Of a stretch of DNA of 64,000 bases, positions 871 to 50,056 are shown piece after piece. The notes below the pieces were generated by a model, which saw only the letters and a program-made list of their open reading frames with translations, was not told the DNA's origin and did no database searches. The DNA comes from Rhodoferax sp. Its GTDB lineage: Bacteria > Pseudomonadota > Gammaproteobacteria > Burkholderiales > Burkholderiaceae_C. Positions within the stretch are counted from its first letter, which is position 1. Every line of letters begins with the position of its first letter. The translations under genes and the position numbers were made by a program. The stretch lies in the NCBI RefSeq assembly GCF_028715765.1, contig NZ_JAQURE010000001.1, positions 1-64,000 of the forward strand, given 5' to 3'.

Positions 871-1259
871 TGGTGGAGCTGGGGGGATTTGAACCCCCGT
901 CCGCAAACCTTCTTCGAACAGTTCTACATGTGTAGCCGTCTGATTTGAATCTCGCTTTTCACATCGCGCAGTGGCACGCTATGCAAATCGCCAGCAACCT
1001 ATTTTCTCGAACCACCCTAAGTTACCCAAGGCGGCTCCAGCCGAATGAAATGACCCCACAGCCTGGACGGTTCAATCTTTCGATCAAGCCACCCTTGCCC
1101 AGCCTATCGGCTTGCTGTTGTGAGGCTCACGTGCAATTAAGCAGCGAGTGCGAAACGTTCGTCGTTTGCAGTTAGTTTTTTTGAATCTGTTTTACGAGCG
1201 CATTCAGCTCGACATGCCCTGCTGCGCGTCCGAATCCACGTCGAAACCAGTGCAGCCCC
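871..1259 (-). ncRNA. ssrA: tmRNA (ssrA)
   Basis: Minus strand begins GGGGCTGCACTGGTTTCGACG and ends GGACGGGGGTTCAAATCCCCCCAGCTCCACCA; tag ORF at 1137-1169 reads ANDERFALAA-stop. Confidence 0.96.
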
Positions 1260-5360: not shown

Positions 5361-5412
5361 ATGCAAAATTGGCCTCTAGCACTTATGGATAGTGCGTGAG
5401 TAGCTATTGATT
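5361..5412 (-). repeat. short palindromic repeat family R1, intergenic copy
   Basis: Minus strand AATCAATAGCTACTCACGCACTATCCATAAGTGCTAGAGGCCAATTTTGCAT, alignable to the other R1 copies. Confidence 0.7.
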
Positions 5413-8360: not shown

Positions 8361-9614
8361 TCAAACCACGCCCTTGCGACGCAGTTCAGCCACTGCCTGG
8401 GGGCTCAGCCCCAGCTCAGACAGCACCTCAGCGGTGTGCTCGCCCAGCGCTGGGGGCGCCCGCTGCAGCACTGGCGGGGTGGACTGCAGGCGCAGCGGGC
8501 TGGCCACGGTTGATATGCTTTCAATAGCTGCTTGTGCACTATTCACGGGCGCTACAGGCTGATTTACCACTAAACCTCGGGCTTGCACCTGGGGGTCAGC
8601 AAAGGCTTGCGCCAGGTCGTTGATGGGGCCGCAAGGCACGGCTTTGTCTTCCAGCAGGCTGACCCACTGCGCCGTGCTGCGGCTGCGGGTGACCGTGTGC
8701 AGCAGCGCCACCAGCGCCGATCTGTGTTGCACGCGCAAGGCGTTGCTGGCAAAACGCGCGTCTGCCGCCCATTCAGGGTGGCCGGCGGCTTCGCAAAAAC
8801 GGCTGAACTGGCCGTCGTTGCCCACCGCCAGCAGCATTTGGCCGTCTAAGGTGTCAAAGGTTTGGTACGGCGCCAGGCTGGGGTGAGCGTTGCCTTGGCG
8901 CTGTGGCACCCGCCCGGTGTTCAAAAAACCTGCAGCTTGGTTGGCCAGCACCGCCATGCCCACATCCAGCAGAGCCATGTCGATGTGCTGACCCAGCCCG
9001 GTGCGGTGGCGCGACTCAATGGCCGCCAAGATGGCACTGCAGGCGTAAATGCCGGTCAAGATGTCGATCAGCGCCACGCCCATGCGCAAGGGGCCACCGC
9101 CAGGCTCGCCATCGGCGTGGCCGGTAAGGCTCATCATGCCGCTCATGGCCTGGATCATCAGGTCGTAGCCAGCGCGCTCGGCGTAGGGGCCGCTTTGGCC
9201 AAACCCGGTGACCGAGCAGTAAATCAACTTGGGGTTGACGGCGTGCAGGCTTTCAAAATCTAGTCCGTATGCCTTGAGCCCGCCCACCTTGAAGTTCTCC
9301 ACCAGCACGTCAGACTGCGCGGCCAGTTGTTTGATCAGCGCCTGGCCGTCTGGCTGCGCGATGTCCAGCGTGATGGCGCGCTTGTTGCGGTTGCAGGCGG
9401 TGTAGTAAGTGGCAAGGTCTGTGTCTGCGCCTTGGGCATCCTGCAAAAACGGGGGGCCCCAGTGGCGTGTGTCGTCGCCCGCGCCGGGGCGCTCGACCTT
9501 GACCACATCGGCACCTAAATCAGCCAGCATTTGCGTGCACCAAGGCCCCGCCAGCACGCGAGACAAGTCCAGCACCTTGAGGTGGCTCAGCGCTGCAGGT
9601 GGTGTGGTGGTCAT
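8361..9614 (-). CDS. CaiB/BaiF family CoA-transferase (possible succinyl-CoA:glutarate CoA-transferase)
   Basis: LKVLDLSRVLAGPWCTQMLADLGADVVKVERPGAGDDTRHWGPPF; adjacent to a glutaryl-CoA-dehydrogenase-like gene. Confidence 0.9.
   Translation of the reverse strand: MTTTPPAALSHLKVLDLSRVLAGPWCTQMLADLGADVVKVERPGAGDDTRHWGPPFLQDAQGADTDLATYYTACNRNKRAITLDIAQPDGQALIKQLAAQSDVLVENFKVGGLKAYGLDFESLHAVNPKLIYCSVTGFGQSGPYAERAGYDLMIQAMSGMMSLTGHADGEPGGGPLRMGVALIDILTGIYACSAILAAIESRHRTGLGQHIDMALLDVGMAVLANQAAGFLNTGRVPQRQGNAHPSLAPYQTFDTLDGQMLLAVGNDGQFSRFCEAAGHPEWAADARFASNALRVQHRSALVALLHTVTRSRSTAQWVSLLEDKAVPCGPINDLAQAFADPQVQARGLVVNQPVAPVNSAQAAIESISTVASPLRLQSTPPVLQRAPPALGEHTAEVLSELGLSPQAVAELRRKGVV
8514..8573 (+). 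repeat. R1 repeat copy inside the CoA-transferase CDS (antisense to it)
   Basis: TTTCAATAGCTGCTTGTGCACTATTCACGGGCGCTACAGGCTGATTTAC; encodes VNQPVAPVNSAQAAIESIS in the host protein. Confidence 0.6.
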
Positions 9615-22339: not shown

Positions 22340-22479
22340 GAAGCGTCTTTCAAAAATGGGGCGAAACGGCTTGCGCTTGTACGTCTGTAGGTTTCAGATG
22401 ATGCACAGATAAATATTGAGGTTCACAGTCCGGAGACGTGAAATTTGGCCAAAGGACGCAGGGCTTGGCGATGATGAAC

Positions 22480-22530
22480 AAAAATGCCTTCTAGCCCTTA
22501 TTAAATAAGGACTGGTAGCTATGTTTATAC
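22480..22530 (-). repeat. R1 repeat copy, intergenic
   Basis: Minus strand AAACATAGCTACCAGTCCTTATTTAATAAGGGCTAGAAGGCATTTTT. Confidence 0.65.
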
Positions 22531-31983: not shown

Positions 31984-32036
31984 TAGAAAAATAGCCTCTA
32001 GCCCTTTATTTATAAGCGCTAGTAGCTATTAAACAA
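31984..32036 (-). repeat. R1 repeat copy, intergenic
   Basis: Minus strand TTTAATAGCTACTAGCGCTTATAAATAAAGGGCTAGAGGCTATTTTT. Confidence 0.7.
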
Positions 32037-38434: not shown

Positions 38435-39421
38435 TTGCGCTGCACGCTTTTGAACTCAGCACCCTCCTCACCCGCCCCACCGCTTTGGTTGGCCTATGGT
38501 TTTTTGGCTTTGAGCATGGCCTTGGTCGGCAGCTATGTGGCGTTGAGCAAGCCGCTGGTGGCGGCTATGCCCGTGTTTTTGCTGGCCTGGCTGCGCTTTC
38601 TCATCGGCGCACTGGCCATGCCGCACTGGCTGTGCAAGCCTGCAAATGAGCCCCCTTTGAGCCCAGCCACCCAGCGGCTGATTTTTTTGGAATCGTTTCT
38701 GGGCAACTTTTTGTTCACGGTGTGCATGCTGTTTGGTGTGAGCCTGACCAGTGCGGTGTCGGCCGGGGTCATCATGGCGGCCATTCCCACCATGGTGGCG
38801 CTGCTGAGCTGGCTGTTTTTGCGCGAACGCATTGGTCTGCGGGTGTGGCAGGCCATTGCCTGTGCAGTGGCTGGGATTGCCTTGTTTTCACTCTCAAAAA
38901 GCGAGCTACCAGCGCATGTATCACATGCTCTAGAGGCCAATTTGGCTTATAAAAATAGCTGGTTGGGTAATGTCTTGGTGTTTGGGGCGGTGGTGTGCGA
39001 AGCGTCTTATGCAGTCATAGGCAAAAAGCTCACGGGCTGTGTCAGCCCCAAGCGCATCACCGCGCTGATCAACTTGTGGGGCTTGGCTTTGATGACGCCA
39101 TTTGGCCTGTATGCAGCGTGGACGTTTGACTTTGCCAGCGTGAGCGTGTCCATGTGGCTGTTGCTGCTGTTTTACGCGCTGGCGGCCAGTGTGTGGACAG
39201 TGTGGCTGTGGATGACCGGGCTGAAAACCGTGCCTGCTGCACGCGCCGGGGTGTTCACGGTGATGCTGCCTGTTGCTGCTGCACTGGTGGGTGTGGGCGT
39301 GCTGGGCGAGCGCTTGACGGCGCTGCAGCTGCTGGCCTTTGGCCTGTGTCTGGTGGGTGTGGTGCTGGCCACCCTGCCCGCACGACAGGCGGTGCCAGCC
39401 AAACCGCCAGCTTCTGACTAA
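38435..39421 (+). CDS. EamA/DMT family transporter
   Basis: Ten hydrophobic segments; AAIPTMVALLSWLFLRERIGLRVWQAIACAVAGIALFSL; VMLPVAAALVGVGVLGERLTALQLLAFGLCLVGVVLA. Confidence 0.9.
   Translation: MRCTLLNSAPSSPAPPLWLAYGFLALSMALVGSYVALSKPLVAAMPVFLLAWLRFLIGALAMPHWLCKPANEPPLSPATQRLIFLESFLGNFLFTVCMLFGVSLTSAVSAGVIMAAIPTMVALLSWLFLRERIGLRVWQAIACAVAGIALFSLSKSELPAHVSHALEANLAYKNSWLGNVLVFGAVVCEASYAVIGKKLTGCVSPKRITALINLWGLALMTPFGLYAAWTFDFASVSVSMWLLLLFYALAASVWTVWLWMTGLKTVPAARAGVFTVMLPVAAALVGVGVLGERLTALQLLAFGLCLVGVVLATLPARQAVPAKPPASD
38901..38960 (+). repeat. R1 repeat copy in frame inside the EamA transporter CDS
   Basis: AAAAGCGAGCTACCAGCGCATGTATCACATGCTCTAGAGGCCAATTTGGC encodes KSELPAHVSHALEANLA. Confidence 0.65.
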
Positions 39422-41937: not shown

Positions 41938-41969
41938 AGCAGCTATTTACTCTCAAGTAAATAGCTGCT
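41938..41969 (-). terminator. Rho-independent terminator of clpB
   Basis: Perfect 13 bp stem AGCAGCTATTTAC/GTAAATAGCTGCT with 6 nt loop, followed by TTTTTTGT on the minus strand. Confidence 0.8.
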
Positions 41970-42000
41970 CACGCTTATTTCATAAGCGCTAGAGGCCTAA
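41957..42000 (+). repeat. R1 repeat copy, overlapping the clpB terminator arm
   Basis: GTAAATAGCTGCTCACGCTTATTTCATAAGCGCTAGAGGCC. Confidence 0.8.
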
Positions 42001-42007
42001 AAGACTC

Positions 42008-44690: not shown

Positions 44691-45686
44691 TCAACCGCCT
44701 GACATCAAAGCCAGCATCAAGGCCACCCGGGCTTTGACGGGCGAGAGCCCTTCAGAGTGTGCAAATTCAGCGTGTTCTGTGGCCAGCACGCGGCCATTGG
44801 CGCAGCGGCTGGCGCGCACCACGCGCACACCGGCTTGGCTGGCGCGGCGCAGCGCAGCCTCAAGCGCATGATGCAGGGTGCCGTTGCCGGTGGCTGCTAC
44901 CACCAAGCCTTGCAGCGCGGGCACCCCTGGCAGCGGCTGCAGCATGGCATCAACCATGTAAGCACTGCCACCGGCGTAGTTCATGACAATTTCCACACGC
45001 GGCCAGTGGTCCAAAGTAGCTATTTTTTCAATAGCTGGTTGCGCTTGTTCTGATTGGGCTAGAGGCCAATTTCTTAATAATCTCAGCTGCCCTTCCTCAA
45101 CATACCCCAAGGCACCGGCATCGCCCGAAGAAAAGGCATCAGGTCGGTAGGTGTGGTTTTTTTGCACATCCAGCGCGCCGTGCACGCTACCCGCTGCGAC
45201 CACCACCACGCCACAAGCCTGCGGGCAAAGCGCCACAGCCATGGCATCCAACAGGTTTTGCGGGCCGTCGGGCGACAAACTTGTGGCCGGGCGCATGGCG
45301 CAAGTCAACACCACAGGCTTGCGGCCAAGCCACTGCGCTGGCAACACAGCATGCAAAAAATACGCTGTTTCTTCAAGCGTGTCGGTGCCGTGGGTGATCA
45401 CCACCGCCTGCACATCGGACTGCGCCAAGTGGTGCTGCACACGCTGCGCCAACACCTGCCAAACGGCAAAGCTCATGTCTTTGCTGTCAATTTGCGCCAC
45501 CTGTTCGCTCACAAGGGTGCAGCCACCCAGTACGCGATTCATGCCCGGCACAAGTGCCAATAAATCTGCCACACTGACCTGGGCAGCGGTGTAACCCAGG
45601 TTGTCAGACGCTTGGGTGGCCTTGCCGGCAATGGTGCCGCCAGTGCCTAAAACCACCACTTTTTTTGGGTTTTGATCAGAAATCAC
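44691..45686 (-). CDS. L-asparaginase
   Basis: [63 protein letters not shown]. Confidence 0.93.
45024..45076 (+). repeat. R1 repeat copy inside the asparaginase CDS (antisense to it)
   Basis: TTTTTTCAATAGCTGGTTGCGCTTGTTCTGATTGGGCTAGAGGCCAATTTCTTAA encodes [20 protein letters not shown] in the host. Confidence 0.65.
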
Positions 45687-50003: not shown

Positions 50004-50056
50004 TTTTAATAGCTACTCACGCTTATTCCATAAGCGCTAGAGCCTGTTTTTGCATA
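50004..50056 (+). repeat. R1 repeat copy, intergenic
   Basis: TTTTAATAGCTACTCACGCTTATTCCATAAGCGCTAGAGCCTGTTTTTGCATAT. Confidence 0.8.

Follow-up and report, generated by a model that had tools for sequence, protein, structure and literature searches.

An old palindromic repeat family, R1, between and within the genes of Rhodoferax and some other Comamonadaceae

An L-asparaginase and a CaiB/BaiF-type CoA-transferase encoded in the window (the whole 64-kb stretch of Rhodoferax sp. DNA analyzed) were found to share a peptide that both genes read from copies of the same palindromic repeat, designated R1. The data are best explained by R1 being an old repeat family that is present in high copy number in Rhodoferax and some other Comamonadaceae. 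According to the reading that we favor, with a probability of about 0.55, R1 would have spread anciently in blocks, mostly by replacing resident sequence and subject to a filter on reading frame, and its DNA would be maintained as such wherever the repeat persists.

R1 copies in the window and in the genome

The similarity between the two enzymes had been described in an earlier note on this DNA, which proposed that both carry a mobile or spreading palindromic repeat of about 45 bp inserted in frame. The alignment of 18 residues with nine identities was reproduced without gaps and at positions within a few bases: the asparaginase peptide is encoded at about 45018-45071 and its CoA-transferase counterpart, NQPVAPVNSAQAAIESIS, at about 8511-8564, both on the minus strand. 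The two peptides are, as the note had stated, antisense to the repeat. A covariance model (CM) was built from five window copies, and both enzyme sites were left out to avoid circularity; the training set was not purely intergenic and included the copy at 38899-38945. The scores of the two left-out sites (Table 1), compared with a top score of about 13 bits in the 64 kb outside R1 copies, corroborated the presence of the same repeat in both genes. The copy in the EamA transporter gene (38489-39421, plus strand) lies close to the junction of two EamA domains (PF00892, two stretches). The Rfam search of the window returned no match to R1 above the gathering score, and a tmRNA gene (871-1259, minus strand; RF00023, 184.5 bits) was its sole find.

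Table 1. Positions and scores of R1 copies and of the two enzyme genes in the window (A, antisense frame; S, sense frame)
Feature	Position	Strand	Support
CaiB/BaiF-type (family III) CoA-transferase gene, 417 aa	8361-9614	-	PF02515, E=1.3e-128
R1 in CoA-transferase gene, antisense, frame A2, encodes NQPVAPVNSAQAAIESIS	8509-8578 (core 8521-8567)	+	CM 29.0 bits, E=5e-7; PWM 42.4 bits
L-asparaginase gene, 331 aa	44691-45686	-	PF00710 + PF17763
R1 in asparaginase gene, antisense, frame A2	45016-45085 (core 45028-45072)	+	CM 25.6 bits, E=7.5e-6; PWM 36.8 bits
R1 in EamA transporter gene, sense, frame S2, peptide ELPAHVSHALEANLAYKN	38899-38945	+	CM 51.6 bits (one of five CM training copies); PWM 39.6
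Intergenic R1, top match of the window	50006-50052	+	CM 60.7 bits
Intergenic R1	41958-42004	+	CM 55.7 bits
Intergenic R1	5364-5410	-	CM 55.6 bits
Intergenic R1	31986-32032	-	CM 54.2 bits
Intergenic R1, weaker	22479-22525	-	CM 33.6 bits

A whole-genome search with the CM gave at least 150 scored matches among 1303 candidates. The census was performed on 1.24 Mb (36% of the genome), in which a hexamer model called 1133 genes (91% coding), using a PWM of 47 columns trained on 73 noncoding copies and a threshold of ≥10 bits. It revealed 230 copies: 97 lay wholly inside genes (about 0.1 expected) and were spread over 88 predicted genes, another 97 lay between genes, and 36 extended across a gene end. 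The density of R1 was approximately 13-fold higher in noncoding DNA (133 copies in 116 kb) than in coding DNA (97 in 1.12 Mb), and it differed between intergenic types, with 1.96 copies per kb between convergent, 1.46 between co-directional, and 0.29 between divergent genes. Scaled linearly to the whole genome, these counts correspond to about 630 copies, of which about 270 would be inside genes, always in an open frame. According to NCBIfam and Pfam, the hosts of coding copies included RecB, UvrD, PurL, PutA (three copies), AroE, SrkA, IleS, MltG, and an MmeI-like enzyme. Two of these hosts are DNA-repair genes, recB (L136:1695-5324) and uvrD (L110:15370-17778); the MmeI-like restriction-modification gene (L108:12517-16539, plus strand) contained three coding copies by PWM and four CM hits, one of them weak.

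Codon-shuffled or reversed genes contained no PWM sites of ≥10 bits, and at ≥8 bits there were 98 intragenic sites in the real genes vs. 0.1 in codon-shuffled and none in reversed genes. All 97 coding sites outscored 300 synonymous recodings of their own peptides, and in 86% of coding copies the columns not used in the PWM matched the element as well. The copies in genes are related to the intergenic ones over the full length of the element. The conserved columns extend from about -12 to +58, so that the element, with a GC content of 34–42% and the consensus ends AATTGCTAT...ATATAAATTT, is about 70 bp long and imperfectly palindromic, and longer than the supposed 45 bp. A chance similarity of the two peptides, or their convergence at the protein level, would fit the occurrence of short motifs in variable linkers and the partly similar native segment (GIxSI) of the CoA-transferase. 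However, the two sites reach 37–42 bits at the DNA level, a score seen in none of the shuffled genes, and the flanking columns match as well; the left-out CM scores and the PWM comparison with shuffled genes refute this explanation, and its probability is negligible.

Weak partial matches were scarce, since 80 of the 98 sites of ≥8 bits already scored ≥20 bits, which argues for block copying and not for stepwise growth. This bears on a molecular drive of the uptake-sequence kind, by which the motif would be gained through point mutation and biased recombination. Such a drive would agree with the many intragenic copies in restricted frames and at unchanged length, and a lineage-wide gain and loss resembles the dialects of DUS (PMC3630211, PMC2346458). 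Nevertheless, the element measures about 70 bp and not 10–12, low-scoring partial matches are rare, true insertions exist, and copies are concentrated in noncoding DNA, all of which make it very improbable.

Reading frames and protein length

The 97 coding copies were distributed among the frames as follows: A2, 38; S0, 37; S2, 11; A1, 5; A0, 4; and S1, 2. Given the frames that are free of stops in noncoding copies, the expected numbers were 18.4, 38.5, 0.9, 1.7, 20.1, and 17.5, respectively, and the bias relative to this expectation was strong (Monte-Carlo p ~1e-5). Hence, coding copies occur mostly in three of the six frames, and the intragenic copies and the frame bias for which the earlier note had proposed a genome search were both recovered. 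Stop avoidance accounts for part of the bias; why A2 and S2 exceed A0 and S1 must be explained otherwise, for example by the tolerability of the encoded peptide. The peptide is common to the asparaginase and the CoA-transferase because both read R1 in frame A2.

Alignment with PDB structures identified the asparaginase segment as the linker joining the N- and C-terminal domains, and in the AlphaFold2 model residues 204–214 are predicted as coil and residues 215–224 as a short helix (block pLDDT 65). The CoA-transferase segment was modeled as coil with strands E349-353 and E366-370 on either side. These models, built from 31 (asparaginase) and 29 (CoA-transferase) sequences, have moderate confidence at both segments. 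In general, the coding copies compared occupied weakly constrained protein segments, and in the two enzymes these are linkers of weak conservation.

With about 23 residues encoded by the element, the net change in protein length could be compared with clean insertion. Relative to a repeat-free comparator genome of the genus (G018, 0.8 Mb sampled), the net changes at 11 sites were -2, -1, 0, 0, 1, 1, 2, 3, 7, 8, and 18 residues, the +3 being that of the asparaginase, and 90% of control windows showed a net change of 0. Six further sites, read from alignments by eye and with differing comparators, gave 0 for PutA sites 1 and 2, about +20 for PutA site 3, +4 for the CoA-transferase (+10 in long-form species), +7 for PurL, and about +20 for SrkA relative to E. 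coli. In the resulting table of 17 sites, which was compiled by hand, nine changes were within 2 aa, five were +3 to +8, and three were +18 or more. The outcome may depend on the comparator, as in AroE, where the change was -2 relative to G018 and about +5 relative to a Vibrio structure. The clearest length-neutral case was MltG, in which the segment aligned without gaps in 29 orthologues of the genus at PWM scores from -44 to +42.

The explanation originally offered was the clean in-frame insertion of a mobile palindromic repeat of the MITE, REP, or RPE kind, by which the protein would gain a peptide. There are true insertions: within the genus, PutA site 3 varies in length, SrkA has its additional residues, one of the comparisons with G018 yielded +18, and the asparaginase linkers of G040 and Rhodoferax sp. 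OV413 are longer by about 18. The in-frame copies and some of the insertions were thus confirmed; however, nine of the 17 sites show no length change, the net +3 and +4 in the two enzymes fall far short of the 23 residues encoded, MltG is free of gaps, and the copies are not recent (maximum identity 0.86). We therefore consider clean insertion as the general mode rather unlikely. One-step replacement and insertion followed by trimming are indistinguishable with the present data. No paper on the mechanism of short-patch double illegitimate recombination was found in the literature searched.

Two of the insertions concern places that may have been entered more than once. In the asparaginases of G040 (L045) and Rhodoferax sp. 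OV413 (L376), the element in the longer linker is placed after a native WP motif and probably reached this linker by a separate insertion. The putA gene (L142:15087-18239, minus strand) contains three R1-like sites; in other species, site 3 has either no element or peptides resembling other palindromic repeats (SMQSGKPWIPAQGRDD, SLRAQRGNP), which makes the linker look like a place where repeats have landed repeatedly.

Age of the copies and their joint retention or loss

The alignment of orthologues did not agree with a lineage-specific insertion. In the 29 orthologues of the genus examined, the asparaginase segment does not vary in length, with the exception of one that is three residues shorter, and the corresponding site carries R1-like DNA of 29–50 bits in Polaromonas, Acidovorax, Simplicispira, and other Comamonadaceae; no related DNA was found at this place in Ramlibacter, Limnohabitans, and Thiomonas. 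Both enzyme copies are old and are shared across the genus and with some members of other genera. Paralogous copies were diverged, with a mean pairwise identity of 0.55 (55%) and a maximum of 0.86 (86%), and recent near-identical copies, as expected of a MITE, were absent. Thus, the copies gave no sign of recent or present mobility. Orthologous copies were more alike (0.66–0.76) than paralogous ones, and on these grounds homogenizing gene conversion among copies was not supported.

Such separate evolution of each copy, together with the lack of recent ones, is what would be expected of passive relics, i.e., old block insertions or replacements that were inherited vertically and decay with no maintenance at the DNA level. 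The distribution of the coding copies was compared at five loci in approximately 30 related species placed on a tree of four genes. Species were either positive or negative at the available loci among asparaginase, CoA-transferase, MltG, and PutA site 2; PutA site 1 (weak) and site 3 (competing repeats) did not cleanly follow this split, and some species had intermediate scores of 4 to 15. One negative clade (clade X), represented by nine species on the tree and compared at loci other than PutA, is nested beside the positive G202. In addition, the negative G160 is sister to the positive G124, and G188/G197 form a third negative case. The flanks of the loci in 11 negative genomes of the clade X kind (72.5 kb) were free of copies, compared with 27 copies in 258 kb elsewhere. 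In clade X and G160, the absence was coordinated at unlinked loci with the length unchanged; the number of events behind this loss is small, and the branches of clade X and G188/G197 are long.

A further result was obtained from codon use. In positive species, the amino acid identity of the site windows was below that of the rest of the gene, whereas the same codon was used more often in them (0.69–0.83 vs. 0.56–0.65, six of six windows); identity at fourfold sites was higher in five of six windows, with PutA site 2 to the contrary (0.56 vs. 0.63). At equal gene divergence, comparisons among positive species showed higher conservation of the windows at most sites than comparisons among negative ones, and the windows approached the gene-average identity in positive species only; since the two classes were set by PWM score, this contrast is inflated and partly built in. 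Coordinated absence in nested lineages and identity near the gene average confined to positive species both speak against passive relics, which we consider doubtful. The joint keeping and loss in relatives suggests that the repeat is more than leftover junk, and codons that appear to be kept beyond the need of the protein point to maintenance at the DNA level.

Several candidates for the cause of such maintenance were explored. Base pairing of the palindrome was not above that of shuffled sequences and no covariation was detected, so that an RNA hairpin as the kept feature was not supported. The search for a trans-acting factor found none. The single RAYT-type Y1 transposase gene of the genome (L181:4146-4847) has an R1 copy of 65.7 bits at its stop codon (gene and copy within L181:4146-4889). 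RAYT genes occur in positive and negative species alike, and the RAYT loci of other species (L205-L211) have no neighboring R1; RAYT as a driver of R1 is thus unsupported.

Under the preferred reading of ancient block spread, copies would have entered genes long ago, most often by taking the place of a similarly long resident stretch and in some cases as a net insertion, and only those events that left a stop-free and tolerable peptide would have survived. Where the R1 population persists, the DNA of coding copies would be maintained beyond protein need, most simply, as a conjecture, through something in trans that recognizes R1; where the population is gone, coding copies would erode together. 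A possible, more tentative variant is that R1 is a large recognition motif that a DNA-acting system wrote into genes length-neutrally and filtered by frame, and that this system keeps it against protein drift; in a lineage that lost the system, the copies in coding and noncoding DNA, hundreds in number, would erode together.

Among the approximately 90 sequenced species of the genus, some have R1 at the sites compared and others lack it, and the copies lie inside core enzymes such as RecB, UvrD, PurL, PutA, and AroE. Such natural with/without pairs could be used to test by which route repeats get into genes, whether they are tolerated as junk or retained, and what drives their spread. The findings are also a warning that DNA-level forces, and not protein function, can shape the variable linkers seen in protein alignments.

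Comparison with known systems

Coding palindromes are best known from Rickettsiales. No description of R1 was found in the open-access literature searched, which is weak evidence of its novelty. The rickettsial palindromic elements (RPE) are 105–150 bp long and are fused to proteins as an added peptide (Ogata et al., 2000, 2002; reviewed in PMC10969869, PMC2229807). R1, compared with them by description, is likewise palindromic and present both between genes and in frame in many unrelated conserved genes. However, at about 70 bp it is outside the RPE size range, has an estimated several-fold more coding copies in three main frames, appears to be mostly length-neutral (nine of 17 sites within 2 aa, at least 18 residues added at three), and resides in a betaproteobacterium of the free-living type.

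Coding copies have also been reported for intragenic GTAG/CGTC REPs, including copies in DNA-repair genes (PMC3733652). R1 resembles REP and RAYT-REP (PMC3733652, PMC2817692) in its high copy number, palindromic structure, location between convergent or co-directional genes, and coding copies in the repair genes RecB and UvrD. In contrast to REPs, it is longer and has no GTAG/CGTC tetranucleotide at either consensus end, and unlike RAYT-REPs it lacks a consistent RAYT neighbor; the RAYT gene of the genome itself has one copy and not two inverted flanking ones.

BRE, a betaproteobacterial repeat reported in Rhodoferax and Polaromonas, also has some copies inside genes (PMC3110155), as does R1. 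In Bordetella, BRE is about 90 bp long with 69% GC, often tandem, and present in ≤29 copies per genome (PMC3110155), whereas R1 is AT-richer (34–42% GC), dispersed, and present in an estimated 630 copies, a comparison made by description. Finally, the DUS of Neisseriaceae and the USS of Pasteurellaceae share with R1 intragenic copies in restricted frames or orientations and lineage-wide changes of dialect, and differ from it in the size of the core, which is 10–12 bp compared with an R1 element of about 70 bp.
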